A stretch of 64,000 bases of DNA from Haliclystus octoradiatus (Eukaryota; Cnidaria; Staurozoa; Stauromedusae; Haliclystidae). Below, one piece after another: positions 302 through 57,123 of this stretch. The notes under the pieces are model-generated. The model saw only the letters and a list, made by a program, of their open reading frames with translations. It was not told the origin of the DNA and made no database searches. The position numbers and the translations under genes were made by a program. Position 1 is the first letter of the stretch; the number at the start of each line of letters is the position of its first letter. Location: assembly GCA_916610825.1 (NCBI GenBank), contig OU744449.1:7894243-7958242 (forward strand). Direction: 5' to 3'.

Positions 302-3300
302 ATATCCAACATTTCACTACTTTAAATATGGAAAAGATTCTTTCAAATACACTGGTGGAAGAAAGGTATGTTGTATGCCAGGGTTTCTTTAGCCAAGCAA
401 AATCCACTCTGCTACTCTGCAAATTTGATCCAGTATGTCGTTACTGCCAAGCGTACTAGTAATGTAATCGATCGAATCCGATACTATTGCTGCTGACGTG
501 ATCACATTGTCAATACACATATTTTGTTGCTACGAAAAAGCTAATCAGCAGCTAGCGAATTATCAAACTCAAGGTAATTAGAAGGTATGGTATTTCTTTG
601 CATTCTAATCATTTCTTTCATGATGGCAATAACACAGTTCAGTAAGTGATCTATTCATATTCTTCATGCACATATTTGAAAATAAGCCTTCTCGGGGACA
701 GCAACATGAAATTTAAATCATTTAGCAGTTGTGGAAGAGTCAAAAGCAAAATATAATGTTACCGATGCGTCTATAAAGGCTATTTAATCATTGAGTAACT
801 TACTGAACTGATATATATATTCAATTTGTTTTTTTATATTTTCAGGCCAGTGATTTTATTGCATTTATGAAATCTCCAACAGAAGGCCCTCTACCTCCTC
901 CACCAGATGCAGAATGGAAAGACACACCAAGCGATGTCAATCATCTCACTGATTCTACTTTTGATGAGTTTGTTTCTGAAAACCCATCTGTTCTTGTTAT
1001 GTTCTATGCACCATGTAAGATACCGAATGGAAAAAATCATCTTTGAAATTTTTACAGAATTCAAACCAAATAGTGTACATAAAAACCCCAGCAGTTCAGT
1101 AGAGGTTTAATTTGCGATCATCAGACGGTTTCTGAAACCATTTATTTATTTGGAACCTGATTAAGAATAATCAAGCTACGGCACAGGCTTTTGCCTCATT
1201 TTTGTTTCTGATTCTATATTATGATTTGTCTTCTGAAACATTGGGCACTCTCTCACATACATTTGTCTACTTAATATTATTCCTATAAAACTTATTATTC
1301 AAAACATCTGCCACTCAGTCAACCTAACAGACAAAACCTCTGAACCAATTGACAGTAAATTATAGAATCTTGAGTTTGCTTTTAATGAATTATGGTGATG
1401 GAGATGATGATCATAGATCAAAATTTAAAATTTTTTGACGTCATCAACCTCTTTGAAAATGGTACATGCGTGTTAGATGGTCTAATTGTCATGAACTGTT
1501 CATGAAAGGTTCATGGGAACCCTTGTGAAAAACAGTTCAGAAGTTCCTGAACAGTTCATGAACGTTAAATGGCCTCAAATTTTCAGGAACTTTTCATGAA
1601 CTGTCCGTGAAGATTCATGACAGTTCATGAAAAACTGGATGTTTAATGTTCATAAACTATTTATGAACTGTTTATAAGGTGTTCATAAACAGTTCATAAA
1701 CGTTAAATGGCCTTAAATTTTCATGAACTGTTCATGAACTGTCCGTCATGATTCATGACAATTCATGAAAAGTTAACATTCAAAGTTTATAAGCTATTTA
1801 TGAACTGTTTATAAGGTGTTCATGAACGGTTTGTAATTGTCTGTACAGTTAATGAACTGGTCCTTAGTAGTACATGAAGTTCATGAACTCAGTAACATTT
1901 TTGCTGGCAATATGACACTATCAAACAGGCCCAGTTAATCATTACTCCTGATGGTAATCTGCTTGCATTATATAGCGCCATATCTAAATGTATGTATGAA
2001 CTATTTATTCTCTTATAAGGGTGTGGCCATTGTAAGAAAATGAAGCCTGATTATCAAGATGCTGCTAAAGAGTTGCTTGACATGAAAGTAAGTCAAATGT
2101 TCGCTTTTTTGGATCCCCTGCGAAAAATAAATCATGAGTTTATGAACACTTCATGAACAGTTCATGAAAGTTAAATGGCCCCAATTTTCATGAACGCTTA
2201 ACGTTCATGAACGTTTCAAAAAATCTGGGACATTTAACATTCTTAAACAGTTCATGAACGGTTTCCACAGTGGAATTCCAAAGTAGTTTAAATTTAGATA
2301 AGTTGGATTAATTTACCTCTTCTGACTTTGTATTTTTGTTGTATGATTCTTGCATGAGCTCTCCATTTTTAAAACTAATTGCCTTCAAACTTGAGTTATT
2401 GCTACAGACTGCTACTGCTGACATACAGACAATTAATCCTATGTCTGGGCTATTAGATCAAATCAAGCTACTGCATATAATAATACAGCAGAAAAAATGA
2501 TGATTTTTTATCAAGATAATAAAGATTCAACTGTTAAGACATTTACTGGGTTCATAAACTATTCATGAACTATTCATGATTTATCCACACACTTCATTAA
2601 ACCCTTTATCTCGAATCCTTAGCATCACAATAAATTTGGCCTAGGTGCTTGGTTGGTGGGAGGTTGGCAGCAAAATACAATAGCTAGTTGAGCAATAGCA
2701 GACCTGACACCACCAACCAAGCTCCAGTCACACTGCTAAGTCAGTGGAATTCCTAGTTATACTTATCTTTATCAACCAACAAAGGGATGGGTAGGGAGGG
2801 GAAAGTAAACAATGAACAGCGTAAAATATCAGCAGCACATAAATCAACCGCTTCAACAAATACAATAGCAACAGCATAACAATTGTACTCATATACAAAC
2901 TTGACATCATTGTTTAGATGAAAGGCTTTTACATAACAGATCATAGGCATACATGCAGTCACAGATCAAACGAGCCATTCAATAAGCATAAACCCTCATC
3001 AACTTTCCTCAACCATTCAGCGGTGCGTTGAAGCAAAGAAAGAACAGTATCGCCCTGAGCCGCACCGATAATTAGCTTAATCTAGGGTCCTAGGAATAAG
3101 AAACTGACAGGGTCATGCTGTTACATGTCCCCAATCAACACTAAGGCAGATTGGTGTCTATAAGAAGACTTTGTGCCATTTAACAGGAGAGCTTGCAGCG
3201 GGATTCAAAGATAGTGTTTAACCTCAGTAAAATTTCATTTAACTACAATTAACTATTCATAATAGTTCAACAGTTTGTGAGAATTTGGCAATTTAACATT

Positions 3301-6300
3301 CATTGACTGTATTCACGTGGTTTGGATAAAACCTAAAGATAAGATTTTTACACATTTTCGATCAATCACAAAGGCAACACTCCTTACCGATCTATGGTAT
3401 TCGAATAATTGTGCTTCAAATAAAATCATGTATTTCATTTCAGTCTGGTGGTAGATTAGCTGCAGTTGATTGTACACAAGAGCGTGGATTAACAGAGAAA
3501 TATTCAATTAATGGTTACCCAACGTGTAAGAAATTGCCAATTGTTTACCTAATCAATTACTGTATTGTTGTAATGTCTTGTTATTGCTGCAGAACCTATT
3601 AACATGTTTATGTTTTCTCAAACATAATTACTTGCTTAATTTATGTTACCATACCTAGAGCCAAGTGGTCAAACATTAGTGTTTTATGAAATTAAAAGAT
3701 GTAGAAGCTTGATATTTGTTATTATCAGATAGAATTAAATTCCAGGCAAGAGCTTAATGGCTCAGGCTATTCGAATTACTCTCAACCTTGCAGCAGACAA
3801 AGGATACCCTATTGCCAGCCCCATTATTTTTATTCTTCCTCTCACCCTTCTACATTTATGCTGACCTGTGTTCGCCTTTCTTTTTTATGTTCTGAACGAT
3901 GTCAACAGTGAAATATTTCAAGTAAGTATCAACAACGTTTGGTTTACAGATTCATTTTCAAATATAATTACTATACTTAATGACATTACCAAAGTCTAAT
4001 CAGATGGCATCACTCTGTAATATGCTGTTCATGAACTTGTTGGACATTATTAACTGGTTATGGAATTTTCATGAACAGTTTTTACCAGTATTATTTCACA
4101 AAGTTTAAAATAATAGCTCAAATTGTTCATGAACTGTTCTGTAAGTTCGAAAAGTTATTACAGTAGTAACAAATCTCATGTACAATTCATAATCTCAATG
4201 AAATAGTTTTCAGATGGTACAAGGCTTCTGTTTCTAATAGCTAATTTCTAATATTTTTGTAGAAACGGTCAAGAAATGAAGGAATATGATCAAGAAAGAA
4301 CAAAAGATAGCATTGTCACATATATGTTGAAGTAAGTTTTTCTATTGTCACTTAATTACCTGGAATATGTAAATATGAAATCGTGATTTCTTTGGATTTG
4401 TGGCGTTCTTTTTGTAGCAAATATATTAGGCGGAGAAAGAGAGATGGCACATTCTTAAAATGTGACCATCTATGCTACAACTACTATTGTTACCATTTCT
4501 TTGAGGCCTTATTCATTCATACCTTGCTTGTATCACTCCTGCAGGAAGTTTTAGATGTAGTTTTTAAACTATTAAACTAATGCATGACTCTTGTTGTTGT
4601 GTATTGTTCTATGCAAAGTGCTTGTTCTATGCATTTATAATAATGTTACAACTTCACAACATAATAAAGAGACTTAATTTACAATATTTTGTTATCTTCT
4701 TGATAACACTTTCAGACTAGAAAGGGAATGTAATGTAAATTTACAAGAGAGAATACTTATACCTTAAAATCTATGGCAAGAAATACACAGGTAACAATTT
4801 CAAAGATTGTCAGTATAATAATTATACAAAATTAATTAACTTTTACTTAACCAAAAGAGGATATTTGGACTCCCCTGGACAACTTAAAATTCACATAGCA
4901 GTGTTCATAAAGATACCCTAAATATGTTTCTGCTTCTTATTTTAGTAAAATTTTATTGTGGAATGAATTCAAATAACAGTTTACAGACGTAGCTGGCTTT
5001 CGATACATATCTTTCCTGTTTTCGTCGTTCTTCTATGAATTCACAAAATCATGGTACATCAAACGAATCAGAGACGATATTCTTAAATGTTAATAATTAG
5101 CCTTTGACTGTGAATAATGGAAAGTAAATTGAATCTTTGAAACATTTTACAATTACGGTTTGATTAAACAAGAAACGGGAGAATATGTGGAATATTTTTT
5201 ATGAACTCCTTCATGTGAATTTCAGTTTCCCCGGAGAAACCTTCCTTGTGGCTCTCTGTTTGTAAATCTGTGTGGTTTCAAGCATTCTATTATATTGATT
5301 AGGGCTGATGGTGCATCATCGCAGAAGGTCGATCCAGAAGTTGAATGGAGTGAAGATGGCACGCAGATTGATTTTCCAACTGATAAAACATTTGACGAAT
5401 ACATCAAAACTAATCCATCAACTCTTGTTATGTTCTATGCACCATGTAAGTTGTATTATTGACAGTGTTATTACCCCTGCAAAAAAATTTGCAACTGTCC
5501 AGATGAAAAGTTCAGAAACTGTTCATGAACTTTCTGAATTGTTCATAAACTTCATGAACTGTTCATGATCTGTCTGAACTGTTCATGAAGAGCTCATTGA
5601 CAGTTCATAAACAGTTCAGAAAGTTTATGAACAGTTCAGGAACAGTTCATGAATACACTATAAACAATCTGTTTGTCTTTCTATCGTTTTTTGGAATAAT
5701 ACTATCGGCGTTACTGATGTGGATTGTACATTACTGTAGTATTAATTATTTCTTTGTATTGATAATGATGTTGTCTGCAGACCTTGATGATAAATTTATG
5801 CAACTCTTCTGTTACTTACAATTGCTAGTAATTATTTCCGTTTGTTTATTTGTATATTAGGGTGTGGCTATTGTAAACAGATCAAACCAGATTATGCTGA
5901 AGTTGCTACCATAGTCAATCAACACAAAATTGTATGTGATTTTAAAGTCTCTCATCATTCTGCTATGATCATTGGAAAGCATAAGAGGATGCACACAAAT
6001 CATGCCAATATCTTTTTAGAGAATTTTTTCTATCACTTACTTCTACTCACGATATATGGTTAAGGCGCTGGACCTCGGTCCGCATGGTCTTTGGTTCAGT
6101 CCCTGGCAGAAGCACTCTTGGTTCATTTCAGGAAGGGCATCTGGCCATCAAACTCACACTCCCTCCAAATATACTAACCAACTAGCCAATCACCTGGGCA
6201 GTGGAAACAAGCTAGTTACTAGCTTACCCGGTTTGTGATGAAATGATAAATCAAAAAAAAAAATAGTTACAATAATATCCATCGTCTATTTATAGTCTAA

Positions 6301-9300
6301 CTAAGCTATTAGCTACACAAGAGAAAACCATTGCTGTTTCTGACAAATTTATCGCGGAATCATTCACCTTTTCCATGTTTCCAAGACGACATGGATCATG
6401 ACTCAATCTATACTTGGGTTAATATTTTGTATCATCTTTTTTAGGTACCAGGTCGAATTGCTGCGATTGACGCAACACAATATACTACGTTGGCAAGTCG
6501 CTTTGAAGTTAAAGGATACCCAACACGTATGTGTCTGTTTGTGTATTTTGCTCATTTTATCTACAAGTTTCATTTCTTGCATTGAGTTCCTGGATGAGTG
6601 TTTCCAAGTTCGCTTAATCTTGGTATATATTTACAGCTCTGATGCAGCCTTCACCTCAGTCAGTGTTTGACAAAAGGCTTCGCCCTCAGCAATCTTCTCA
6701 AAATATTGTACTTTTTATGTATTTTTTTGTATTTTTTCTTTTGATTTTTTAATTGAGGTTTTGTAGTGCTTACAATATTTATTAACCTCCTTTGTATTTA
6801 ACCTCGTCTACATTCATATATAAGATAAGTGTTTGATCTTACCCCTGCGAAAAACAGTTCAGGAGTTCATGAACAGTTCATGAACAGTTCATGAACGTTA
6901 AATTGCTCCAATCTTCCTGAACTGTTCATGAACAGTTCATGAAAATGTGGGGCCATTTAACGTTCATGAACTGTTCATGAACTCCTGAACTGTTTTCGCA
7001 GAGGTAATAACACAGTTTATGTTTAGTTATCACAACTATCAGGTCTTGTTTATTGTCTCTTGTATTATTAACATTGAGTGTAACCCAAACCCAACAATTT
7101 CCAGGCCTATAAATCAGAAAATTATTAATTTTCTTCTGAATTTGCTCTAGCCTTCCAAATTCTAGGATCCCAGGATCCCCATTTTGTCGGACCCTGAGCC
7201 CGGTTGACATTTATAAGGGCACAATATAAGATAATTATTGTTTTAATTGTCATTTAACATTTTCCATTCTTTTTCATGTTGAATTTACCTCTGATCAGTC
7301 AAATATTTCAAGTAAGTTACAACTGAATATTTTATGTTACTGTTAATAATACCAATTATAATAATAATAATAATTATCTGGTCAAGTTGATCATAAACCG
7401 CTTTGACTTTGTTGTTGTGTTTAATTATAGGGATGGGAAAGAAGGCAAGAAATTTGATAACGAACGAAATAAATATGGAATATTAGAGTTCATGAAAGAG
7501 TAAGTGAAATATCTTTATTGACTTCTTTACTTTATCAATCAGAATAAAGGAAGGATGGGATGGTTCGAAATAATATAACTTATTAATATAACTTACATGT
7601 GTGTCTACATTACATTTTAATATTTATTTCATCGGCATTGTAGCACTCATATCTTAGTTAATAACATCAAACTTGAAACAGTTCAGGAGTTCATGAACAG
7701 TTCATGAATCTTCGCTCACAGTTTATAAACAATTCAAGAAAATTTGAGAGTATTTATTTAACGTTCATTAACTTTTCACAAACTGTTCATGAGCTTTTTG
7801 CATGGGAATCTACACATGTTTCTTTTTCCATGCTTCTCTAGAAGTTTTATTGATATAAAGGTATCATATCTTCAATTATAAATGGGTGGTTAATCTTTCT
7901 GATTGCCAGATGGAACCCAAGCCATATCACAGTCAAGTACTTTTTATGAATTGCTCGCAAACTGTTAAATTTTTTTAAAAAAAATCATTAACTGTCCATG
8001 ATATATTCATGAACTTTATAGAGCATTTCTCAGACGTGATGATCTCCTTACAAACATTTCTGGTTATTGCAGAGGATCCTGACTGATATACTGTATCTTA
8101 AAAAATATACTGTCTTAATTGTTGATCTGATTTATAACAGATTGTATTCTTCTTGATTTCTTTAGGGTTAATAGAGACGATATGGCTGATGCTTCGACCA
8201 GTTCTGATTCAAGTGATTGGAGCAGAGACACAGAATATGTACAGTTTTTAACTAAAGATAGTTTCAAACCATTTTCAGAAACTCAACAGGAAATGCTTGT
8301 CATGTTTTATTCACCTCGTAAGTGTGAATCAATTGATTACCTTTAATTGATTTATTCTTCTCAGTTTTCAGTTCATAAGTTTAGAAAATCTTGAAGATTA
8401 ACGTTCACAATGTTTTCATAAAAAGTTCATAAAAATACCTACCTTTTTTGAAATAAGTTCATGAACTTCACAAATAAACAATATTTGTGAGCAATTCTGC
8501 TGATGAGTTCATACACATTTCATTTAATCCTGGAGTTTGTGAACACAATATAGGCCCTTTCATGAAAAGCTTTTTCTTTTTTCTTATGGCACGCTTTCTA
8601 ACTAAATTGAAGTACCGGCAAAGTGTGGCAAACAATCCTTCAAGATGGCCTATATTAAAAGAAATGTTTTGAATATGATTTATTTGATTATGCAACAACG
8701 AAAGAGGATGAATTCTTGCTTCTTTTTATAACATCTTGATACATGAAAAGTTCATACAATTACACCTTTCGAGAAAGGTTCATGAACTCCACCATAAATC
8801 CGTGAGCTGCATTATTAAAGTGTTAACTGTTCATTACTAAACTCTCGAAACGTCTTGGTCTAGTTTGACAATGGTGAATATAATCAATATCGCAAGTGGG
8901 GTATTTCACCGTCGTGTTTTTCTTTCCACTTAGCTTTAAATCTTAGCTTTTAAGGTTAAATATAACTTATTCTGAAATATATCATGCGCTAGGAAAATCT
9001 TTATCAGTCTTTTTGTTTTTTATATTTTAGATTGTGGACATTGTGAAAGTCTTAAACCTAACTATTTAAAAGCAGCAGAAATTCTTAACACAGAAACGGT
9101 AAAGTTTGGCTTATGAATCTAAACATAAGTACAATTGTTATATTATGTAATGATTCTGTCTGGTTTCTCTGTGACCCAATGGGGTGTATCACAAGAAGCC
9201 CAGACAGAGTTATGAGATAACCATGTGCTTTGTAGCATTTTTAGTGTTGATTTGAGAGAGTTTTGTTTAAAAATATATCTGATCTTATGTTATTATATTA

Positions 9301-12300
9301 TATTTATGGATGTGTGATATTTTGAGGTCCACTATACTTAACAACTATATTAGCTTAATTTCCAGTATATTCCTATTCTTTAACACCCTGGCATGCTAAG
9401 ACATTTTAGGAATTTAAATTGAATCTTTTTGGCATTATCAAAGTACAGTAATAAAGCTCCTTGATAAGGTTAAGAGTTGAGTTGAGTATTAGCAAGTGTA
9501 ATAAATATATTTAGTCACCAATCAACAGGTCAAGAGGAAAATTAAGCAATCCGATTGGTCGAATATGTTTGGACTCCATTCAATTCTAAACTGTATTGAC
9601 CGCTCGACAATATTTGCGATTTGATGCATTAGTGATCACTTTATATGTTCCAAGATTGACAGTTCTTGATCTCAGGCCAAATGAATGTCGAGATAATGAC
9701 TTTGATGGACCTTGATCATTATTAACCGATATTTACGTCGCCTTCGATCAATAAGTATTACATATTATTGTTTCTCTAATTTTTGTTTGAGAAATTGAAA
9801 TGAATGATTCAGACTGATAAATTTTTAGTTTTTTTTTCCTCAGCCGCATGTTACTCTTGCTGCTGTTGATTGCCACAAGGAAGTCAGTCTTGCACAAGAT
9901 CATAACATTGATGGATATCCAACAAGTAAGATACTCAATTGCAGTATTTTGAATTGTTTACCTTCCAATAGAAATCCGTACTATCATACAAGGAGTTTTT
10001 ACTCGATTCTGTGCACCCTTGTCAACAATTCAAATTTTGAGGTGTGTTTCCCCATTCCCAAAAGTGGGTGTTCATGAACTGTTCATGAATATTGTGCAAT
10101 TTAGCGTTTTAGAGCTGTTTTCAAAAGGAAATACTGAAAATCATTCCTAAAATACGCCATCCCCTTGCAACAATCTCACTTTTCTGTCACTTATATTTAT
10201 ATGATCTATGAGAATTATGACGGAGAGTTTCTCATTTTATCAAATTTGAACGATGGATTCAACTTAAGCTTTGTAGATGTATGTGATCATATGTACCCAA
10301 TATAATAGGCCTTAGATAAACCGGCACTTGTACCTGAAGGGTGCCGTCAAGCATAATCATTATGAACATTTTGCAAATACAATCCTGTTAATGTAAATTA
10401 ATCTAGTTTAAATGTAGACTACTCATTGTATTAAATTTGTTCCATTGATAAAATTGTTTGAAATATATCCATATATCTAGAATATTTGTACTATATATTA
10501 ATTATAATAAGAATAAGAATATTATGCAAACCATTTAAGAGAGTGCTCGATACAGTTCAGTAGAGCAATGTATAAATGAAACAAAGATATATAATATAAT
10601 CCTTGATTTTACGTATAGATTGACGCTAATTTAAATAATAATTATTTCACTACTGGTATTTGCCTGTTGAGTTTAGTTGTAAAATGCATAATATGTATAT
10701 AAATATAATACAATATTTGTACTATATTAATTATAATAAGAATAATAATAATAATATGCAAACCATTTAAGAGAGTGCTCGATACAGTTCAGTAGAGCTA
10801 GGTATAAATGAAACAAAGATTAGTCAGTTATAAATATATAATATAATCCTTGATTTTACGTATAGATTGACGCTAATTTAAATAATAATTATTTCACTAC
10901 TGGTATTTGCCTGTAGAGTTTAGTTGTAAAATGCATAATATGTATATACATATAATACAATATTTGTACTATATTAATTATAATAAGAATAATAATAATA
11001 ATATGCAAACCATTTAAGAGAGTGCTCGATACAGTTAAGTAGAGCTATGTATAAATGAAACAAAGATATATAATATAATCCTTGATTTTACGTATAGATT
11101 GACGCTAATTTAAATAATAATTATTTCACTACTGGTATTTGCCTGTTGAGTTTAGTTGTAAAATGCATAATATGTATATAAATATAATACAATATTTGTA
11201 CTATATTAATTATAATAATAATAATAATATGCAAACCATTTAAGAGAGTGCTCGCTACAGTTCAGTAGAGCAATGTATAAATGAAACAAAGATTAGTCAA
11301 GTTTTACACTGTAAAACATGACTAATGTTTGTTTCATTTATCCATATATCTATAATGTTCATGGTCGTTTTATAACATGTGTCGATTCGATTTCTCCTAT
11401 TATGTTGGTTGTATCGTTTGTATTATATTTTTATATATTTTTTTTACTTTCAGTGGTGTATTTTAGGTAAGTGTGTGACAGTTGAAACTTTATTACTTCA
11501 CTATATTATTTTGTTGATAGCGTTGGCCGGGGTCATGTCTCTCTTGACAAGCCTTCTAGTATACGTGGAAAACGATCATACTATTATTATTATATCCGGA
11601 CATATATTATTATATGAAATGGCTGAAACCATAATTATCAGGCGTGTTGTTCATTGTATGTATATGAATAAACAATGCACTTGGACTATTATTAATTGCA
11701 AGTTATATTCCTTCATAATTGTAACACATCAACTTTCAAGATGCATGTTGCTTGAAATGGGCCGTCGTTATAGTGAGAGAAAAATTCGATAGGGAGTTGC
11801 TAGCATTCAGATGGGGACTGTTTACACATATTGAAGTAATTGTTAAATACAGTAGCAAAAATGCTATTTTCATTATTCTTTCAATTTGTATTTTAGTAAT
11901 GGTGTCCGTGTAATGGAATTCAAAGAAGGGCGCGAAGTTGATGATATTGTATCGTTTATGCAAAGGTTTGAATATATGAATTGATTGATGATACTTATTT
12001 TGTAGCTTTCGGTTTAACAATTGGGTTTAAGTTATTTGATTTGAGAAATTGCCCGTAAATCCTCAAAATACCATATTATTAATTTTCGATTAATTTCACC
12101 CGATGGTAACCTCCTATAACCAGAGCCATCTATTTATAAGAGTTAGTATTTCGTTCCATTGAAAACGAGGTTTTGCTTGGAACAAAAAGTGTTTCGAATT
12201 CATGATATTATTTTTGTTCAAATTTCGCGAGCCAGGGTTTGACGGAACGAAAATGGCGTGAATCAGGTGACTGGCATTTGTCTAATTGGAGCTAAGAACT

Positions 12301-14572
12301 ACACATGAAAGATTGTCCTATTTCTTGTATATAATGGCTCTGCCTGTAATATGTCGACGGTAGGCTAGATGAGTGGAACTTTTCTCTTACAGTAATAATA
12401 GTAAATGCTCATTTACTGATCTGAGCCGCGACAATGCAGATCAATTTCAACAGATTTCATGGCAGATATTCATTGCTTTCCAATGCTAAGCGATACGCTG
12501 CAGCTCTTCATAATGCAATTCCCTCTGAACCATTCCAGCCTCCGTCAAACGATGGTATAATCTTTTGATGTTCAGACAAAAATAAATTTAAGGTTTAGTT
12601 GGATCTGAGATGATTGCTGCATAACGCCAGTCATAGTGCTTCCTGCCTTGTTTCAATATTTTATGTTTATGTATATAATGAAATGGTTTCTTAATTGAGC
12701 ATCAAGGTTAGTTTATACTCGTTATTTTTGGCATGGCAAAACTAATCTCAAAATGTTCACGAAAAATGTACAAAGTCAACAACTAAATTGTGCTGTTTAT
12801 CGCAACGAAAAATACCTTTTTGAATCAATCCACCAGATTCTTTTTGCTTAGTTAGTATTATTTTGCTATATCGATAAAAAATTTTTAGATTTAAAAACTT
12901 TTGTATTTGCGGTTCTTTTGCTAGTACAATGGACATTGAGAATAAGAAATAGATCGTTACCAATTATGAACGTTAGCAGCTTTCATTTGTAGTGTTCGCA
13001 TCTTCTTCTAGGAAAATAAATTTTTATATAATTTGTTTCTTCTTGCCTTATAGAGAAAATAAAGTACAACGTAAAAATGTTGACATAGATAATTCTAGGT
13101 GGCAAGATTTACCAAGTCCTGTTTTACATGCCACACCGGAATCATATTTTTGGATGTTGAAATCAAAGAAAAATTCATTTGTTATGTATCATCGTCAAGG
13201 TAATATTGATTACTAATATTTAGTTTCACCCAGTATCCTTATTAGCTACCTATTGGTTTCGCGTGACTTTTTAATGCTCTATGGAGTCTGGGGAGTGTCA
13301 TCATTGATACTTTTCTCTCAATTTTCTGAATTCTCTCAATTATTTTGAATTTTATACAATGTTTAGACTCAGATGATTGTATGCCTGCCAGAGCCAACTT
13401 CATGAGAGCATCATCACGAATGAAAGCATCAACTGAGATTGGTTTTATTGCCATTGACTGTGGAGATCATCAAGGTTAGTAATGTTAATGAAATGTTTTT
13501 ATATGTTCCATCTTTTAGTCATAAGTAATTGAATAACATGGATAACAAGACAAAGGATCAGACTTGAAATTCTATGATGCTTGTTTTGTTTTTACTAAAC
13601 ATGAATGCGCATACGATGTAGTCCATTTTTTATTGTATGCGATGTCTAATATTGAAATGTATATAAAAATATACAAACAATTTATTAACAAGCAGGCAAT
13701 ACTATTAATATAGAGATTGCCACGTGAAAAATACTGGGAGACGCAAGGGAGTATTGGCAGCAGAAAAAAATCACGAAAGTACAGTATATCTTTGCCTTTG
13801 TTGCTAGTAGCCTCGCCTTTTTCTTTCGGTTACGTTCTGGTTTTGTTTTGTTCTTCGGATACCAACATTTAAACCTTGATTCATATTCTAATTCGTTGGA
13901 TTTTACCTAGCTCCAACCGTCTTCCATGTGCATTTGATAATCAGACCAAACTTACATTTGACTTAAAACTTTCAAATTATTATGTATTTTCTTCTGTTGT
14001 ATAATATTTCGTCAGCTATTTCATGCGGGCACATGAGATAGTTAAGATAATGTCGTTGGATTTGATTCTTGATGCTCGTTCTGCATTATTTAATGATTAT
14101 AATTCGGTTGATGCGGTTCTTAACCTTTGTGGTTAGATATATTTATAAATAAATATAACATTGAATAGTATCTGACTTTTAAGAGCTTGATATGACCAGC
14201 AGTATTGATTTTGTTGTATTCATGTAAGAAACGAGTTTCCGAAATACAAAATGCTACTACGTAATTGCATGAAATCGAGTTAGAAATTTGGCCCAGAGAT
14301 TCTGATTTCCATTTTAGATTCTTTGGATGTAAAATGCAATGCGATAATAGCGAGCTGGGAGTCGTTTATGTACTATTAATCTTCATTTTTAACATTCTAA
14401 ATTCGAATTAAATTTTCATTTTTCAGCTCTATGTAACCAAGAAAACATTAACACATATCCAACTGTCAAATATTATGAAGGCACCGTACCAAAGGATACT
14501 TATACTGGAGGCATGACACCTGAAGATTTTACAGACTTTTTAACAAAACATAATAAAAAAGATGAATTGTAA
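302..14572 (+). CDS. PDIA5-like multi-thioredoxin-domain protein disulfide isomerase (5' partial)
   Basis: ER protein disulfide isomerase that would make and rearrange disulfides in secretory cargo. Nineteen coding exons join in one open frame: 302-365, 846-1014, 2020-2087, 3444-3525, 3909-3921, 4263-4331, 5303-5445, 5861-5931, 6445-6526, 7299-7311, 7431-7499, 8166-8317, 9031-9098, 9844-9925, 11454-11466, 11897-11965, 13054-13199, 13373-13474, 14427-14572. They give about 539 residues, and more lies upstream of the window. The visible protein starts in the end of one thioredoxin-like domain (YPTFHYFKYGKDSF). Four further domains follow, with active sites WCGHC, WCGYC, HCGHC and a degenerate DDCMPAR. 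Each keeps a cis-proline motif (GYPT or TYPT). The chain ends KKDEL, an ER-retrieval signal. The linker PLPPPPDAEWKDTPSDVNHL followed by TDSTFDEF resembles the PDIA5 linker; human PDIA5 is shorter (519 residues), so this is a domain-expanded relative or a related multi-domain PDI. Exon 13373 could instead start at 13367 (in frame, two residues more). Confidence 0.9.
1488..1890. mobile_element. GTTCATGAAC-type MITE cluster, nested or tandem
   Basis: Diverged units of the same palindromic family. The segment with GTTAAATGGCCT occurs at about 1563 and again at about 1704, an internal duplication of about 140 bp. It lies in the PDI intron before the WCGHC exon. Confidence 0.7.
2116..2262. mobile_element. 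GTTCATGAAC-type MITE, diverged copy
   Basis: Starts CCCTGCGAAAAATAAATC like the family terminus, then TTCATGAACAG units and GTTAAATGGCCCC. A separate short piece with two units is at 2552-2582. Confidence 0.65.
3909..3921 (+). other. 13-nt coding microexon, PDI domain 1
   Basis: The flanking exons end ...CCA ACG T (donor gtaag) and resume after a tag acceptor at 4263. Only the 13 bases between cag and gtaagt keep the frame, and they encode TLKYFK of the thioredoxin beta strand after the cis-proline. Included in the CDS above. Confidence 0.85.
4024..4145. mobile_element. GTTCATGAAC-type MITE, degraded copy
   Basis: Scattered GTTCATGAAC and TTCATGAACAG units in a PDI intron; termini not recognisable. 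Confidence 0.5.
4420..4500. repeat. dispersed repeat shared with 21590-21660
   Basis: TTAGGCGGAGAAAGAGAGAT, CACATTCTTAAAATGTGACC and TCTATG recur in diverged form at 21590-21660 (TTAGGCGGAAAGAGACG, CACATTCCTGTAATATGTGA). Nature unknown. Confidence 0.55.
5471..5655. mobile_element. GTTCATGAAC-type MITE copy
   Basis: Begins TTACCCCTGCAAAAAAA, the family terminus, and continues with about a dozen GTTCATGAACT-like units. The right terminus is not clear. Confidence 0.7.
6050..6263 (+). mobile_element. tRNA-derived SINE, copy 1
   Basis: The head resembles a tRNA gene: a TGGTTAAGGCGCTGG A-box region and a GGTTCAGTCCC B-box region. A body with CAGGAAGGGCATCTGGCCAT follows, then CCGGTTTGTG and an oligo(A) tail ending at 6263. 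It sits in a PDI intron. Confidence 0.8.
6839..7007. mobile_element. complete GTTCATGAAC-type MITE (reference copy)
   Basis: Left end TTACCCCTGCGAAAAACAG and right end CTGTTTTCGCAGAGGTAA are inverted repeats, and the match continues inward through GTTCAGGAGTTCATGAACAG to GTTAAAT, so each arm is about 65 bp. The inside has no coding potential. Length 169 bp. TTA/TAA at the ends may include the target duplication. It occurs in a PDI intron. Confidence 0.85.
7299..7311 (+). other. 13-nt coding microexon, PDI domain 2
   Basis: Same position, length and phase as the microexon of domain 1. It lies between a cag acceptor and gtaag donor and encodes TLKYFK across the junctions. Confidence 0.85.
7676..8012. 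mobile_element. GTTCATGAAC-type MITE fragments
   Basis: Two diverged pieces (about 7676-7797 and 7930-8012) with CAGTTCAGGAGTTCATGAAC and TTCATGAACTTT units. Further weak pieces are at 8366-8470, 8743-8790 and 10068-10095. Confidence 0.55.
10490..11300. repeat. tandem array, about 3.5 copies of a 221-247 bp unit
   Basis: The landmark ATATTTGTACTATAT occurs at about 10492, 10713, 10960 and 11192. Each unit contains GCAAACCATTTAAGAGAGTG, CCTTGATTTTACGTATAG and CACTACTGGTATTTGCCTG. The array ends at a foldback near 11278-11335 (ATGAAACAAAGATTAGTCA against its complement). It lies in a PDI intron. Confidence 0.92.
11454..11466 (+). other. 13-nt coding microexon, PDI domain 3
   Basis: Third copy of the same microexon, here encoding TMVYFS across the junctions, bounded by cag and gtaagt. 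The 1.5 kb intron before it holds the tandem array at 10490-11300. Confidence 0.8.
12121..12341. mobile_element. MITE with CAGAGCCAT ends, copy 1
   Basis: Ends CAGAGCCATCTATTTATAAG and (inverted) CAGAGCCATTATATACAAG. The interior TCAAATTTCGCGAGCC and GAACGAAAATGGCGT recurs at 55375-55594. No ORF. Confidence 0.75.
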
Positions 14573-16680: not shown

Positions 16681-16681
16681 T

Positions 16682-17998
16682 TTAATGTTTTCGTTCGATT
16701 ATAATGATTGGTTTATCTGGATGTGATACCATGCTCTTCTTCCTTTTGCCTGGTGGGCAACATTGTGCTGGACACTGAGGTAAGAAGCATTGGCTTTGAC
16801 AGATCACTGGGCATGTTGGTGGTGGTGGAGGTGGGGCAGCTGGGCAGCATGCTGCAGGGCATACAGGTGCACATGCAACGGCACAGACGGGTGGACATGG
16901 TGGTGGTGGTGGAGGTGCTGGCGCTTGAGGACAGCAATATTGTGGGCATGCTGGTGCACATTGGGTGAAGCATTGAGCTGGGCAAGGTGCTGGTGCTGGA
17001 GCAGCAATACCTGGAGGTCCTGGTGGGCCTGGGAGGCCAGGTGGTCCTGGAGGCCCTGCAGGTCCTGGTGGTCCATTAGGTCCTTGTGGTCCTGGTAATC
17101 CAAAGGGTCCTGCTTGTCCAGGTGGTCCTGGAGGTGGAGGAGGAGGGGCGGGATAGCAACAAGAGGGTGGACATGATGGGGCACATCCAACAACACATTG
17201 CATTGGACAAGCTGGTGGTGGTGGAGGAGGTGGTGGAGCTTTGACACAACAGCTTGGTTTACATGCGGGGGCACATGCTGCGGGACATCCAGATGCGCAT
17301 TCAGCGCCACGTGAATCTATAACGCAAAACAAATAACAGGTTATTGGAATAATGAAGATCAGGCTATAGAAAAAATAAAGTCTTACACTAAGTTAAGCAA
17401 TAATAAAGCAATAACCCACTATGAATTATACCAATGTAATTGGTAATTGAATATCCGATTTTATTAGTTCTCTTGAATTTATGTTTACAAGACAAAACGG
17501 TGTCGACATCTTTGGTGCACATTTGCCTTACCCTCCAACCTAACTAAATATCCACATATCACATTGTATAATGATCAATATAGTTGTTGTCTATTTTATT
17601 TTTATTTTCAATCAACAACTGCTTTCAAAAGATATCTTTTTAGTATATCTTACCTCACTATATTATATATTATATATTATAATCTATCCAGTAATACGAA
17701 GATCACAAATAAAGTGAAATTTAGCGGGATAGTATGTATTTTATCCGTAAAGTTTCATTCTAATTTAGCTCTAGTTAAAAATTGTGACCTTAAATTCAAT
17801 TGCCAATCAACAATTTTAGAAACTTTAAGCATCTTATTTTGTTTTTCTGAAGTATACTATTTTTTTTAATATGATCATTTGAAAATGACGGATAGGTTTA
17901 TAATTGTTATATTTTGAATGCTTACCTCTTACTAATGAATTAGCTTGGGTACATGCCACTACTACTGCAATGCAAATTAATATCTGTATCTCCTTCAT
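16682..17998 (-). CDS. minicollagen A, five cysteine-rich domains
   Basis: Secreted nematocyst-wall minicollagen, 235 residues. Exon 1 (17998-17926) encodes the signal peptide, starting [16 protein letters not shown] and ending in phase 1. The intron is 17925-17317 and exon 2 is 17316-16682. The order in exon 2 is CRD1 [18 protein letters not shown], polyproline, CRD2 [18 protein letters not shown], polyproline, 14 uninterrupted Gly-X-Y triplets, then CRD3 ([18 protein letters not shown]), CRD4 ([18 protein letters not shown]) and CRD5 ([19 protein letters not shown]). CRD5 has one four-residue spacing. A basic tail (GKRKKS...) follows. Most minicollagens have one CRD per end; this resembles the multi-CRD subgroup. 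Unlike its neighbours it has no Lys-Arg propeptide site before CRD1. A tatag acceptor 14 bp before the ATG implies a 5'UTR intron; a donor at 18147 and a TATATAAA near 18354-18361 could mark the 5' exon and promoter. Confidence 0.93.
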
Positions 17999-21960: not shown

Positions 21961-22887
21961 TTAATGCTTGCAACATGCTGGTGGGCACGATTTTACACAT
22001 TGTTGCGTACATACAAATGGGCATGGTCCTGCACCACCGGATGGTCCAGCGCCGCCGGATGGTCCAGCAGATCCTGGAGGTCCAGCACCTCCTGCTGGTC
22101 CTGGGGGTCCTGGAGGTCCATCAGGTCCTGGTGGTCCAGCTGGAGCACCTGGTGGTCCTGGTGGTCCTGGAAGTCCTGGAGGTCCTGGTGGTCCTTGTGG
22201 TCCTCTTGGTCCCAATGGTCCAGCTGGTCCTGCTACTCCAAGTGGGCCTGGTGCACCTGGTGGGCCTGGTGGAGGTGGTGGTGGTGGTGGTTGTGGAGCG
22301 CAGCAAACAGGTGAACAAGCTGGAGCACAAAAACTAGGACATCCACCGCCGCAGGCACGAGCACTTCTCTTATCTGAAAGTAATCAAATATATATAGTAA
22401 TTAAAAATATATTAGTATATATGCATTGAAATACTTCACAATATTTCAACAGAAGATATCCTAAATGGGCATAAGTAACCTTCGTAGCGAATGTATATTT
22501 TTGTATTGATATTTGAAAGATGTTTTGCGTCTCTTACAGGACAACAAAAATATTGTTCTTGAAAGGAAAAATGATTTGAGGCTAAAACTCTTGTTTTCGT
22601 ATTGATATTTTTATAAGAAAGTTGTACTCTCGATTAATTGATAATATACTTATCCAAAATGTATATTTTTGGTGAACAGATTTCTTATTTTTAAAGAGTG
22701 GTTAATCACATAAATGATGTAACACACGTAGTTTGATGATGAATTTGTAAATATTCAAAGATGCTGCTGCATAAAACTGTGAGGTATGATTTCTATGCTA
22801 CTGTATCGATTGCTTACCTTTTTCTCTTGGTAATGCGGCATTAGCCAAACCGAAAATTACAACGAACAATATAAGTCGTGTATCCAT
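21961..22887 (-). CDS. minicollagen B, extended collagen helix
   Basis: Minicollagen of 160 residues. Exon 1 (22887-22818) encodes the signal peptide [17 protein letters not shown] and ends in phase 1; the intron is 22817-22374 and exon 2 is 22373-21961. A propeptide ends in DKR, the usual Lys-Arg processing site. [22 protein letters not shown] is followed by about eight prolines. The collagen region has 14 triplets, one extra Ala (GAPAGPP), then 12 triplets, the last part rich in GGA and GPS rather than proline. It runs almost directly into [22 protein letters not shown] with no C-terminal polyproline tract, which is unusual here. The tail is KH. Signal exon and CRD1 are very like those of minicollagen C, so the two are recent duplicates. 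A tttag acceptor about 20 bp upstream of the ATG implies a 5'UTR intron. A plus-strand tttatt near 21738 (AATAAA on the coding strand) could be the poly(A) signal. Confidence 0.93.
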
Positions 22888-23122
22888 TGTTGTAAATTGT
22901 TTAAACTAAATAAAGATGACAAGAATAACTTTTATAACAAAATACACAATATAGATAAATGTATTATAAGAAATAATCAAAACGTCGAATCCTTTGATAA
23001 ATAATAGAGATTATGACAGCATTTTAAGATTTCTATTTTAGAAAATGCAAACACTTAGAATAGAAGCTATAAAGTTCAATATCGAAAAACTGAAGTATCT
23101 TAATTTACAAGAATTGATTATA

Positions 23123-23166
23123 TCAAGATATTATAATAGAACCATGGTTCTATTATAATATCTTGA
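23123..23166. repeat. perfect 44-bp palindrome
   Basis: Two 22-bp arms meet at the centre of CCATGG with no spacer. It lies upstream of minicollagen B. Confidence 0.95.
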
Positions 23167-25070: not shown

Positions 25071-25079
25071 TCATACTCG

Positions 25080-26350: not shown

Positions 26351-26352
26351 GT

Positions 26353-28340: not shown

Positions 28341-28374
28341 AGTCGTATCATCATTTTTATATGATGATACGACT
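28341..28374. repeat. short foldback, 14-bp arms
   Basis: AGTCGTATCATCAT and its exact complement separated by 6 bases. No associated element recognised. Confidence 0.85.
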
Positions 28375-31869: not shown

Positions 31870-32479
31870 CTAATAAAATAAATAAAAATAAATGAATAAT
31901 TAAATCAAACGATACCATGTTAGGCCAATCATAAGTATTTTTTATTTGAAAGATTGTGATATGGCTTAGGCTAATTATGTACACATTTATTTCCTTCGTA
32001 ATTTATTAGAACATAAATATCAATGTGAAGGATTGTTTTTCTCCCGTTTTTCTATGAGAGTGCCTTATTTTTCAAAGTAATAATATAATTTATTTTAAAT
32101 ATAGCTGACCTATAAGTAAGATATCAATTATACAACCTTAGCAAGTTAGAAAAAAAATATATATCAAAGAACAAATGAAAAAATTCCTTTTAAAAAGGTT
32201 CTTAATAAATTCGGAAAGCAACAATTTAAGTTTTCCAATACAATATAGAATTGCTTTCCAAATTTAAGAAGCCGAATACGAGATTAAATAAGAAGTAACT
32301 GTATTGTTCTACGCTAATTTTGTTATTAAATAAACTATAGTATAAAAGAACACAAAATAATTATGTTGTTGTTCACATTTTTTCTGGTTACCTGAAATAT
32401 AGAGTAAGTCTTACCTTGACGATTGTTCCTTTTGATCTGTTCAATATCGTAACAATGAACTGGTCTCCCAGAAATAAAT

Positions 32480-34358
32480 ACCCCCTAGATTAATTATTAA
32501 CGAATAGATCAACGAAGCCACTGACCATTAGTGTTCACCTGTCGAAGTGGGCTTGTGTGACCTGTCTTAATTATAGCCACGAAGCCTAAACAACGAGAAT
32601 CTAGTCTTCAAGGATCAATGCTAGTTTACTGATCTGCTCATCTCAAGACTGGTGGTTTTACTGTGAATCCGGTCAAGTCAGACCATAAGATCGACGTTTT
32701 TGATTATTTCAAAATGGTTAGTTTCATGATTATTAAAGTCTACAACACGTTTTAACATGACGTCAGTTATCTAAATTTGTTCGTTTTTTGTGTAAATTAA
32801 TTTACTCCTACATAGATATTTGTATAAAATGCCTTATATTTTTAATCTTATTGGGAAATTCAACAATTTGTATCTTGATTTGAATATCTTTTGATAAAAA
32901 TGAAGGAAAAATTGTTCTTCAGATATTCATAGAATACAGGGTGATGATAGGCATAACAAGGCATAGGGATATATATTATAGCTATTTTTATGTTAATTTA
33001 TTTCAATTTCTCTGAAAAATACTCATTAAAAATGATATGATAATAATTTTTCGGAAGGTCACAGGGCTGGTTTGGTCTCTCTACAATGTTTGCCTCGTAA
33101 TGGAGTGAATAAATGATTTCATTTTGAATGATTTTGAGTCAGAAAGCTTTTACTTTATTGAAATTAATTGTTTATGGTTTTACCAATGAACCAAAACGCG
33201 GGTTACTTTTCAATAAGAAGAAAGACACAAATGATATTTAAAGGCTTCTATTCATTCACTTCATGGCATAATTATTCCTCATTTTAATTTACAACAATTT
33301 CTTAATTTTATATGATATTCTAGAACAATTGATGAGCCAAAAGGAAAAGTATTTGCATCATTTATCAAGTCATTTAATTGTGTTAAGGATTAAAAATGTT
33401 TAACTACTATATCCAGAACAGAAATAATTATTTTGATACTAAAATCTATCGTCCGTCTGTAGGAGATCTTGATTTTAAGAAGTATATATTAGTATGTACT
33501 CTTTGTTATGTATTGTATATGTCATTTATGATGACAATTTCTTTGTATTTTATAAATTTAAGTATATACTGCACACACATGGGCAGCTATAGTAGAGCCT
33601 TGATGAATAATTAAGATTTGAAAAGCTAGCAGAGAACCAATTAAATATCTACCACATCTGTTAAAATATCCATATACAACAACTGACAATAATGATCAAA
33701 ATAATTTATTTAATTTATAAATGCAAAGAAGTGGAACAGTTTTATTTTACTTTTTTGGGTTTGTAAGTTGTTATTATTGCGAATTTGAAAATTTATAAAA
33801 CATTATATTACAAGAATCGATGCTTATGTGTATAAATTACAGGAAACCACAACAATAAACTGCTATAAGTTCTCTTTCAGCTAAAGGGTTCTGATATCTC
33901 ATTTGAAGCAGCTATCCTGTTGGCATAATTACTCCCTAAGATAGTTTGAGGGGAATGCAACTTCCAGAAAACCCCAGTACCCCAAAATGTTCTCAAAAGG
34001 AGAAATATAACATTCCTAATAATTCTATTTGGACAGGCCTTTCAAATTGATAAACTCTAATTAAGAATTCATGGAAATCTAATTTTGATTTACAATGAAA
34101 TGATGCTTGGTGAAATTTCATTGGTGAATTAATGCCCTAATTCAATTTGAGGTGATGCATTCTACGTCAGTTTCACCAACAGCCACAGCAGTACATTCTT
34201 CAATGTCCGTGTCTAATTATATATGATCGATAATAATGATAATTGAGCTACATAGTTCAAATTTGTGTTGAAAGATGAAGATTCTAGGTTTAAGTTAAAA
34301 TTATTATTGCTTTGGAAGTGTCAAAAATTGCACTATATAGCTCATTTGCAACACCCAT
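32480..34358. other. intergenic, upstream of minicollagen D
   Basis: No gene or repeat recognised. A 72-aa open frame at 33396-33614 has no domain and no neighbouring splice support. Confidence 0.55.
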
Positions 34359-34440
34359 ACAGTAAAACCTGTCATAGTGGTCACCTCTATGCAGTGACCA
34401 CTTGTATGCAGTGATCGAGTTAGTGATATACAAAGGCATT
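34359..34440. mobile_element. pogo/Tc1-like MITE terminus
   Basis: TACAGTAAAACCTGTCATAG and GGTCACCTCTATGCAGTG match the left end of the complete element at 54188-54368. Only one end is present. Confidence 0.6.
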
Positions 34441-34674
34441 TCTCTATCTAAATCTAAATCTGGAATATCTAGTTGTTATTATATCTAGATATTTTGTTTG
34501 ATTTCCTGATTTTTGATTTTGAGTCTGAGTTGATCAAAAACATTCATCAGTCGGACATTATAGATCATGTGGTTGTACATGTATATGTAATTAACTAAGT
34601 AAAAGAAAATCCACATACACACATACCTAGACCACTCACAGCTCTCGCTGTAATTGGTCACACAAATATTTTGG

Positions 34675-34765
34675 AGCCGTTGTTGACTCTCATATATAAA
34701 TGCTTTGATTAATGTCATTGCGCACTATACGAAGAACTGGCGTGGAACAATCCCACTATTAATAT
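34675..34765. repeat. dispersed repeat, inverted relative to 52280-52365
   Basis: About 80 bp including AACTGGCGTGGAACAATCCC and AAATGCTTTGATTAATG match the reverse complement of 52285-52360 almost exactly. Confidence 0.85.
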
Positions 34766-35058
34766 TATTATATTATTATTATTGTGTTATTTCATTTATA
34801 CATAATGTAAACAAATATTATAATACATCTGAAATTCATAACCATATCATTAAATTATTAAAATTATAATTCTATTCAAATTGAGATCCATAACATAAAT
34901 GTTCATATTTTACACATCCATGATCCATGATCAGAAATGTTACTTGCCTTGATCTCCATCAGAAGCTATATAATGAACACTTTGTTCCCGCAAAAGTTTA
35001 TGTGGTTCTTAATTTCATTATTCTACCCTTCAACTAAGGGGCGTAGTAGCACCAAATA

Positions 35059-36270
<1,212 letters not shown>

Positions 36271-40858: not shown

Positions 40859-41534
40859 TTACTTCCTCTTGGCTGGGCAACAGTAAGTTGGGCATGATGC
40901 AACACATTGTTGTGGGCAGATTGGTGGGCATGGTGCTGGTGCTGGTGCAGGCTGTCCTGGTGGTCCTCCTGGTCCTGGTGGTCCTGGTGGTCCTGGTGGT
41001 CCTGGAAGTCCTGGTGGTCCAGCTGGTCCTGGTGCTCCTGGAGGTCCTGGACGTCCTGGGGGTCCTGGGTTTCCTGGGATTGGTGCTGGTGGTGGTGGTG
41101 GTGGTGGAGGAGGTGGTGGTGGTGGAGGTGGTGGTGGTGGTGGTGGTGGGGGTGGTGGTGGTGGTGGTGCACAACATACTGGAGCACATGCTGGTGCACA
41201 TGCGGCTGGGCATGATGGAGCGCAAGGGTTGGCCTCACGTTTCAACATTTCTAAATAGAGACAAAAAAGAAAGAGTGTTTCAGTAAATCATCAAAATATA
41301 AACATGCGCAGTTGAAGAGAGTCCAATTATGAAGCCCAATTGTATCAGAGTCTTGAGAAAAGGGACCAAACTCCATTCGAGCAATAGTTCAAATCAGATA
41401 ATGGTCATCAGCCAATCATTAGTATAATTATCAACCAAAGTGAAGATTAAATTTATGAACTTACCGTGGAGGGTTTTGGCATTGGCATAAGCCAAGCACA
41501 TAACGAAGCAAACGACGATGATTCTTGCTGCCAT
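40859..41534 (-). CDS. minicollagen F, canonical architecture
   Basis: Minicollagen of 153 residues, the most textbook member here. Exon 1 (41534-41465) encodes the signal peptide MAARIIVVCFVMCLAYANA, phase 1; the intron is 41464-41251 and exon 2 is 41250-40859. The propeptide ends [26 protein letters not shown], polyproline of roughly 28 residues, 14 uninterrupted Gly-X-Y triplets starting GNPGPPGRP, a short Pro-Ala spacer (QPAPAPAP), C-CRD CPPICPQQCVASCPTYCC, and the basic tail PAKRK. AATAAA on the coding strand at 40595-40590 is a candidate poly(A) signal. A 5'UTR intron is implied by the tttttaag acceptor 6 bp before the ATG and a donor near 41727. Confidence 0.95.
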
Positions 41535-45025: not shown

Positions 45026-45029
45026 TAAA

Positions 45030-48366: not shown

Positions 48367-49651
48367 TTAACAGCATTGTGGAGGGCATGATGGCAAGCAA
48401 GTGATAGGGCAAGCCACAGGGCATGGAGGAGGAGGTGGTGGTGGTGGAGGTGGAGGTGGTGGGGGTGGTGGTGGCGGTGGTGGAGGTGGTGGTGGAGGTG
48501 GTGGTGGTGGTGGAGGTGGTGGAGGTGGTGGTGGTGGAGGTGGTGGAGGAGGTGGTGGGGGTGGTGGTGGTGGTGGGGGTGGTGGTGGAGGAGGTGGTGG
48601 TGGAGGTGGTGGTGGTGGCGGTGGTGGGGGTGGTGGTGGTGGTGATGGAGCAGGCATTCCTGGTGGTCCTCCTGGTCCTGGAGGTCCTGGAGGTCCTGGA
48701 GGTCCCGGTGGTCCTGGTGGTCCTCCTGGTCCTGGTCCTCCTGGGCCACCTGGACGTCCTGGTGGTCCTGGTGGACCTGGTGGAGCTGGTGGAGGAGGTG
48801 GTGGTGGTGGTGGTGGTGGTGGAGGAGGTGGAGGTGGTGGCGGTGGTGGTGGTGGCGGTGGAGGTGGTGGTGGAGGTGGTGGTGGTGGCGGCGGTGGTGG
48901 TGGAGGTGGAGGTGGTGGAGGAGGTGGAGGTGGTGGAGGGGGTGGTGGTGGTGGTGGAGGAGGTGGTGGTGGTGGTGGTGGAGGTGGTGGAGGAGGTGGA
49001 GCACAGCAAATTGGTGCACAGACTGGTGCGCAGATTGCTGGACAAGGTGTACCACAGGCATCAAATTGTCTTTTGAATAAATCTGTAAAATGAAGGGAAT
49101 CCATATATTGCCATGTTTCATTTTATATACATTTTAAGTTGAACATTTGTATTTGGGATTTGATACGCCTGGCTGATTTTTCTTATAAATTTGTCTGGCT
49201 CGTTAAATAAACAATATTGAGTCACAATACAACGAATATGTAGTACAACGAATCAGTATGGCCATCCAAAGACAAATTGAAACTTGAGTCATGGGCACGA
49301 TCATGCATAAAGAAAGCGAGTATTACTTTATTAAAGGACTTTATCTGTTTTTAATTCAATTTTATTTAATTTTGCTAATTTTGTTTATTTAAGAAGTAAT
49401 TTTTAATTCAATTCTACTTAATGATCCTTTTACAATTTTTCTTAGTAAGATGTTTTACATACTCTCAATTTTCAATTTTATAACTATGTATATACACTAT
49501 TCAAATAAAATATTATCATTTCAAAAGTGCTAAAAGAAAAGAGTTGTATATATAATGCTGTATTTATGACTGACTAACCTTTTTTGTGCTTCCTAGCATG
49601 GGAAGCTGCTACTAGCAGCACAAGTGCTGTAACTAGCACTGAAAGTCTCAT
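48367..49651 (-). CDS. minicollagen G, giant polyproline tracts
   Basis: Minicollagen of 262 residues. Exon 1 (49651-49579) encodes the signal peptide MRLSVLVTALVLLVAASHA, phase 1, donor gttagt; the intron is 49578-49083 and exon 2 is 49082-48367. The propeptide ends LFKR. N-CRD CGTPCPAICAPVCAPICC, then 71 consecutive prolines (48999-48787), Ala, 14 uninterrupted Gly-X-Y triplets including GRP, GGP and GMP, then PAPS, 73 consecutive prolines (48642-48424) and C-CRD CPVACPITCLPSCPPQCC ending at the last cysteine. Codons CCA and CCT dominate with scattered CCC and CCG, so the tracts are imperfect triplet repeats rather than a pure microsatellite. AATAAA on the coding strand is at 48232-48227. 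A ccatttcag acceptor sits 3 bp before the ATG; a gtgagt donor at 51319 and exon end at 51320 may be the 5'UTR exon, giving a UTR intron of about 1.7 kb. Confidence 0.94.
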
Positions 49652-56116: not shown

Positions 56117-57123
56117 TTAACCGCAGCATGGAGCTGGTGGTGGTGGTGGAGCACAGCACATTGGTGGTGGTGGTGGAGGTGGTGGAGGTGGTGGAGGTGG
56201 TGGAGGTGGTGGAGGTGGTGGAGGTGGTGGTGGTGGTGGTGGTGGTGGTGCACAACATGGCATTGGGCAGATCTTCATGCAGTGGTGAACACAGATTGGT
56301 GGACATGGTGGTGGTGGTGGTGCTGGGGCTCCTGGTGGTCCTGGTGGTCCGGCTGGTCCAGCTGGTCCTCCCATACCTGGGGTTCCTGGAGGTCCTGGTG
56401 GTCCTCCGCCTCCTGGTCCTCCGATTGGTCCTGGGGGTCCTGGTGGACCTCCTGGTCCTGGTGGACCTGGCATTGGTGGTGGTGGAGGTGGTGGTGGTGG
56501 AGGAGGTGGTGGTGGAGGTGGTGCACAACACATTACTGGTGGTGGTGGAGGAGGTGGTGGTGGTGGTGGTGGTGGTGGTGGTGGAGGTGGTGGTGCACAA
56601 CAAGATGGTGCACATGCTGGTGCACATGATGGAGCACATCCAAATCCACATGGATTAGGAGATCGCTTCTCTGTTGAGATAAGCAAATATAGAACATATG
56701 AGTGGGTAATCAAAGACAATAACACTATCATAGTAGTCAATCAACTCCGATCTAAACCGAGGTTAGCTATGTTATTAGTAATTGAATTCAATGGAGAACA
56801 TATGAAACGAGTAGATGACCATACACAATTTGATACATTCATTTGTACGAATAAGTGGCCATCAATCAATTCTAAAAATGAAATGACTTCAGTTGAAATT
56901 TGAAAGAAAATAATAAACCTAGAAATTTTATTGAGACCAGTATACCTACAACATTACAATATGAGACAAGCTATATCAGTATTATCAACAGCAGCCTAAA
57001 TTTAAATAAAATAAACTTAATATAATCGGAAAGACAATGTATGACCAAAACAATACCTTTTACTGAGAAAGCTGAGGCATTTGCCACGAGGGCCAAACAT
57101 ACGATTATTACTCGGATCTCCAT
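56117..57123 (-). CDS. minicollagen H, with extra vicinal-cysteine pairs
   Basis: Minicollagen of 206 residues. Exon 1 (57123-57057) encodes the signal peptide MEIRVIIVCLALVANASA, phase 1; the intron is 57056-56671 and exon 2 is 56670-56117. The propeptide ends VKEKR. N-CRD CGFGCAPSCAPACAPSCC, about 19 prolines, an isolated VMCCA, about 16 prolines, then 16 triplets including GGG and GMG, a short proline run and C-CRD CPPICVHHCMKICPMPCC. After the C-CRD the protein does not stop: about 30 prolines, another MCCA, five prolines and APCCG follow. The three extra CC pairs are not full CRDs. A tttacag acceptor directly abuts the ATG; a donor at 57774 with exon end CAAG at 57775 is the likely 5'UTR exon. 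AATAAA on the coding strand lies near 55865. Confidence 0.93.

Follow-up and report, generated by a model that had tools for sequence, protein, structure and literature searches.

Minicollagens are defined by the cysteine pattern CX3CX3CX3CX3CC, here called the cysteine-rich domain (CRD), together with 12-16 Gly-X-Y (GXY) repeats, as set out in a passage of PMC4863159, and the same paper postulates a disulfide isomerase for nematocysts. Three cnidocyte-specific protein disulfide isomerases (PDIs) are described for Nematostella (NVE15732, NVE15733 and NVE26200) in a passage of PMC6161364, which gives neither their subfamily nor their location with respect to minicollagens; the gene numbers of two of them are consecutive. 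In Aurelia, the minicollagen genes are clustered and co-expressed according to a passage of PMC9112765, which cites Khalturin 2019 and names no PDI. Here we describe a 64,000-nucleotide stretch of the Haliclystus octoradiatus genome (C5:7894243-7958242, hereafter the window) in which a gene of the same enzyme family, similar to PDIA5, lies next to a cluster of eight minicollagen genes (MC1-MC8). Within the titles, abstract openings and passages returned by our literature search, no PDI gene tied by position to a minicollagen cluster was found. In word searches, the term minicollagen occurred only in a reference in PMC6599738 and PMC12239612, neither minicollagen nor disulfide occurred in the text of PMC13137736 that was available, and disulfide did not occur in that of PMC10548089. 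The reading that we favor, to which we assign a probability of roughly 0.6, is that the enzyme is a PDIA5, probably encoded by one gene copy, in which the number of catalytic domains has risen to six, that it plausibly serves minicollagens, and that its position next to them is probably incidental.

Human PDIA5 (PDIR) has three catalytic domains, with the active sites CSMC, CGHC and CPHC, and terminates in KEEL. The Haliclystus gene, as modeled, encodes a protein of 1,010 residues that comprises, in order, a signal peptide, a PDIA5-type N-terminal domain, six catalytic thioredoxin domains (a1 to a6), one degenerate domain and the tetrapeptide KDEL. The active sites are at residues 179, 301, 425, 548, 673 and 802 and read CGHC, CGHC, CGHC, CGHC, CGYC and CGHC, and all six catalytic domains combine CGHC or CGYC with a downstream cis-proline motif, GFPT or GYPT. 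The degenerate C-terminal domain lacks a CxxC motif and ends in KDEL, and it has its own match to Pfam Thioredoxin (3.7e-6); seven stretches of the full protein were matched by that family (2e-166). When the 127 residues directly after the signal exon were used as a query, the PDIA5 structure 4i6x was matched at 2.8e-24, while the next PDI was reached only at 0.095, with a non-PDI chain, 7rdr, between them at 1.6e-7. Because of this N-terminal match, the enzyme was assigned to the PDIA5 type. It resembles the human protein in its non-catalytic N-terminal domain, its thioredoxin domains in a row and its endoplasmic reticulum (ER) retention signal, and differs in having six catalytic domains and an extra degenerate C-terminal domain. 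The first three catalytic domains stand where the three of human PDIA5 are, and relative to that number the remaining ones are extra. Retention in the ER and catalytic activity are predicted from these motifs. The earlier note on this DNA had described a PDI with three sites, CGHC, CGYC and CGHC, and a KDEL end; these are indeed present in the window, at 2022-2033 (domain a4), 5863-5874 (a5), 9033-9044 (a6) and 14558-14572 (KDEL with the TAA stop), all on the forward strand, yet they make up only half of the active sites of the full protein. This predicted six-site PDIA5 is the firmest new fact to come from the locus.

The exon structure suggests how the array was enlarged. Exon lengths of 82, 13 and 69 bases, in phases 1, 2 and 2, recur in domains a4 to a6, and a2 has a close variant of the pattern (82-13-66). 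The 13-base micro-exon occupies the same place in a2, a4, a5 and a6, where it encodes KYF or VYF. Identity between domains was 50% for a2 and a4, 46% for a2 and a3, and 44% for a4 and a5. Since the tree of the eight thioredoxin domains was short and weakly supported, the history of the domains was read from the exon lengths instead. These point to in-frame duplication of an exon module, which is the simplest account of the repeated lengths.

The gene model was built from DNA alone, with exons placed by eye and by script in the window and in 30 kb upstream of it (sequence pieces L014, L015 and L016). A splice-consistent chain of 36 exons was assembled, and a signal exon was then added: the exon MDRKFRFILTLAIVVQL, a phase-compatible, signal-peptide-like start that was the top candidate by splice phase and hydrophobicity. 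The resulting gene has 37 coding exons over 37.2 kb of the forward strand, beginning 22,601 bases before the window and ending at 14572, with every intron of the GT-AG type and a single open frame. Nineteen of the exons (19 to 37, at 302-14572) lie inside the window and encode the end of a3, then a4, a5, a6, the degenerate C-terminal thioredoxin domain, KDEL and the stop. Position 302, where the span given in the earlier note begins, therefore belongs to the 19th exon; the gene itself starts 22.6 kb upstream of the window. A gene model drawn from DNA alone might have fused two PDI genes, and the junction between PDI and minicollagens might likewise be a misjoin in the assembly. Both forms of artefact appear highly improbable. 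In the exon at 846-1014 (+), the end of a3 runs through a proline-rich linker into the start of a4, which places both halves in one gene, and the consistent introns and frame argue in the same direction. As for a misjoin, the 264 kb around the locus contain no N, and a passage of PMC9975415 gives HiFi and Hi-C data as the basis of the assembly. Inspection by eye also revealed a retroelement-like stretch with long flanking repeats in the second intron (L015:240-4000) and dispersed GTTCATGAAC-rich repeats at many places in the introns, for example at 1480-1870, 5480-5660 and 6850-7000.

The number of PDIA5 genes was assessed by searching the genome (261,861,806 bases in 33 contigs) exon by exon with two queries, one of 542 residues from the C-terminal half, as provisionally modeled, and one of 479 residues from the N-terminal half. 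The searches recovered the gene's own exons, along with weaker relatives on C5 (0.64 and 17.58 Mb), C2 (20.6 Mb) and C1 (0.61 Mb) and a marginal one on C11 (12.6 Mb). No second PDIA5-type N-terminal domain, and no second PDIA5, was found anywhere in the genome by this search, which gives lower bounds; a single copy is thus likely, though unproven, and we conclude that PDIA5 is probably single-copy in this genome. The enzyme therefore looks like a conserved family member and not a copy set aside for capsules. A genome search with PF00085 yielded 22 exon matches, grouped by hand into 14 loci, again a lower bound. That search had no match at the PDIA5-like gene itself, because introns cut its catalytic domains after MFYAP; exon-wise Pfam searches under-count intron-rich PDIs.

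Downstream of the PDI gene, eight minicollagen genes follow one another, all on the reverse strand, as the earlier note had reported. Each has, in addition to its body exon, a phase-compatible exon for a candidate signal peptide (8 of 8), and their start codons lie at 17998, 22887, 27137, 31869, 36270, 41534, 49651 and 57123, the last of which, in MC8, is the end point that had been given for the cluster. At least two CRDs were present in every gene, at both ends of the protein; the outermost one of MC1, the last of five, is a CX4C variant. MC1 (16682-17998) has 14 GXY repeats and five CRDs, four of them CX3CX3CX3CX3CC and one the variant, with two located before the collagen part and three after it. 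It is also the one gene in which KR does not precede the first CRD, a dipeptide found in the other seven. MC2 (21961-22887), MC3 (26353-27137), MC4 (31133-31869) and MC5 (35059-36270) share an N-terminal CRD, a body of 14+13 GXY repeats with a one-residue break, and a C-terminal CRD. MC6 (40859-41534) has 14 GXY repeats between its N- and C-terminal CRDs, MC7 (48367-49651) has the same with a very long polyproline stretch ahead of its 14 repeats, and MC8 (56117-57123) has 16 repeats between its two CRDs, and short MCC motifs. In MC5, a 621-base AAT simple repeat separates the signal exon from the CRD (35529-36150). Pfam Collagen matched six of the seven body frames submitted, MC5 not being among them, at E up to 0.01; MC7 was missed, and MC8 fell under the curated cut-off. 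Compared with Hydra NCol-1-type minicollagens, the Haliclystus proteins likewise have a signal peptide (a candidate here), KR (in seven of the eight), terminal CX3CX3CX3CX3CC, a short GXY stretch with polyproline on its flanks, and runs of 14 or 16 GXY repeats, and differ in the doubled GXY body of MC2-MC5 and the five CRDs of MC1. The PDI and minicollagen genes are considered secure, because the 37 exons join in one frame with GT-AG introns and at least two CRDs occur in 8 of 8 minicollagens.

The 14+13 body was found only in MC2 to MC5 (21961-36270, reverse strand) and in none of the other four minicollagens, which suggests that this part of the array grew from one doubled founder. Such visible tandem growth would also be expected if PDIA5 and a founder minicollagen had been neighbors in an ancestral cnidarian with little rearrangement since, the array growing in place beside the enzyme with no functional coupling between them. 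We regard an ancient linkage of this kind as improbable.

The adjacency itself is as the earlier note had described it. The stop codons of the PDI gene (14572) and of MC1 (16682) are separated by 2,109 bases, and the PDI gene, on the forward strand, and the minicollagen genes, on the reverse strand, converge tail to tail. Because the two groups converge, they have no shared promoter. The 500 bases before each of the eight minicollagen starts were searched for words of 6 to 9 bases against a background of 1,500 windows of 500 bases drawn at random from the 264 kb, and the promoters of the PDI gene and of a neighboring CRD/polyproline gene, described below, were tested apart. The best raw values were 1.3e-3 among 1,224 6-mers, 4.5e-5 among 2,294 7-mers, 1.5e-4 among 3,150 8-mers and 2.5e-5 among 3,615 9-mers, and no shared word in these eight promoters of 500 bases passed correction, the best reaching about 0.1. 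The top 7-mer, CTTATGA, occurred before five of the eight minicollagens and in the PDI promoter, was absent from the promoter of the CRD/polyproline gene, and failed correction.

A cnidarian genome holds about 20,000 genes. From the 14 PF00085 loci and two flanks, the chance that a thioredoxin-family gene would border the array was estimated at approximately 0.1 to 0.3%, and at approximately 2% if any of about 200 folding or collagen-processing genes were counted, the figure of 200 being a guess. Because these estimates were made after the fact, they were given little weight; the adjacency is a single event, too common to stand alone as evidence.

Beyond the eight minicollagens, the capsule locus continues. 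A signal-peptide exon with the donor GTAAGC lies at 63568-63646 on the forward strand and opens a CRD/polyproline gene that adjoins MC8, is divergent from it, and runs beyond the window. In the sequence piece that covers its remainder (L017, 703-4512, forward strand), a lysine-rich part is followed by three bodies. All three are preceded by AG acceptors of one common phase and close with TAA, and they hold polyproline and two, one and one CRD-like motifs, respectively. No run of five or more GXY repeats was found in the three bodies. They look like alternative last exons and may give alternative isoforms of a capsule protein. Ten open frames around the window, the three bodies among them, were searched against Pfam; two matched, to a REJ domain and a phosphatase, and the three bodies matched no family. 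Because this gene adjoins the eight minicollagens, the locus appears to be wider than the array and, as read from the predicted exons, to extend to roughly 68.5 kb in the numbering of the window.

Capsule genes were also found away from the window. Three more minicollagens, detected with protein queries, lie at C5:3.626-3.658 Mb, 4.2 Mb from the array, which rules out the idea that all minicollagens of this genome sit in one cluster. The members of this second group (C5:3625600-3627400 and C5:3655800-3659000) are divergent and have altered C-terminal CRDs. CRD proteins without collagen repeats were located at three places on another chromosome, C2 (28.38, 30.88 and 33.55 Mb; sequence pieces L044, L045, L053 and L054); these are polyproline- or glutamine-rich, and one has four CRDs. 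Five further GXY matches (L046-L050) contained no CRD in frames of at least 60 residues, and the matches left unread include C11:7339198 and C11:2045066. When MC3 was used as a protein query, MC6, MC7 and MC8 were not listed, and since protein queries thus find distant minicollagens poorly, further copies may exist. Near the second minicollagen group, whose flanks were not read, the exon-by-exon searches gave no PDI match. By search matches, a PDI-type gene stands at one of five CRD loci, a count in which the flanks of the other four are unread and intron-cut PDIs can be missed, given that the PF00085 search missed even the PDIA5-like gene. Conversely, one of 15 thioredoxin-family loci (PDIA5 and the 14 grouped PF00085 loci, a lower bound) stands at a CRD locus.

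These results bear on the proposal of the earlier note that the window is a nematocyst assembly neighborhood. Part of that proposal stands, in that this is a locus of capsule genes with, beside it, a multi-domain PDI that has a signal peptide and KDEL and is of the kind called for in the literature. That the PDI belongs to the locus by function is not borne out, given that no second PDIA5 was found, the genes converge, no promoter word is shared and the second minicollagen group has no PDI match. In its full form, the proposal would make PDIA5 the nematocyst isomerase, which would share a chromatin domain with the minicollagens and be expressed along with them; its six sites would process CRDs in bulk and hold C-terminal CRD cross-links until the switch to the wall polymer. 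The adjacency speaks for it, as do the CRD gene beside the array, which widens the capsule locus, the enzyme postulated in the cited passage of PMC4863159, the cnidocyte-specific PDIs reported in that of PMC6161364 and the clustered, co-expressed minicollagens of Aurelia in that of PMC9112765. It is opposed by the failure to find a second PDIA5, hence a specialized copy, by the tail-to-tail orientation, by the lack of a common promoter word after correction, and by the other minicollagens and CRD genes that lie elsewhere with no PDI match; furthermore, the main text of PMC8773148, a comparison of nematocyst proteomes, contains no word starting with isomerase. We consider this account unlikely.

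An incidental adjacency remains the reading that we favor, and several points weigh against it. The enlarged catalytic array would fit a heavy disulfide demand, convergent genes may share chromatin or enhancers, and the promoter scan, with eight promoters of 500 bases, had little power. The exon-by-exon search misses intron-cut PDIs, and a PDI near the second minicollagen group is possible. In addition, because Nematostella has three cnidocyte-specific PDIs, as the passage of PMC6161364 states, a capsule-linked PDI is not far-fetched. On balance, we give a functional adjacency about one chance in five. Shared control is unlikely because the groups converge, their promoters are separate and other minicollagens occur elsewhere without a PDI match, and it is most likely that the adjacency does not reflect it.

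Whether or not position matters, the PDIA5 described here would be expected to form and isomerise disulfides of secreted proteins in the ER. A large part of its load in nematoblasts would plausibly come from CRDs, both those of minicollagens and those of the CRD/polyproline proteins, and we infer that these proteins are among its clients. A bolder extension would identify this enlarged PDIA5 with the nematocyst isomerase that has long been postulated, would have its array grow for CRD-rich clients, and would see in its place at the end of the minicollagen array an old capsule-assembly locus, kept by selection and traceable across cnidarians; it seems distinctly unlikely.

Disulfides hold the wall of the stinging capsule together and are rearranged as it matures; in the passages of the literature cited here, the enzyme responsible is only postulated. 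If PDIA5 proved to be broadly expressed and unlinked to minicollagens in other cnidarians, the arrangement in Haliclystus would amount to a coincidence plus a domain expansion. As it stands, the locus offers one concrete candidate for this isomerase, with an unusual six-site make-up.

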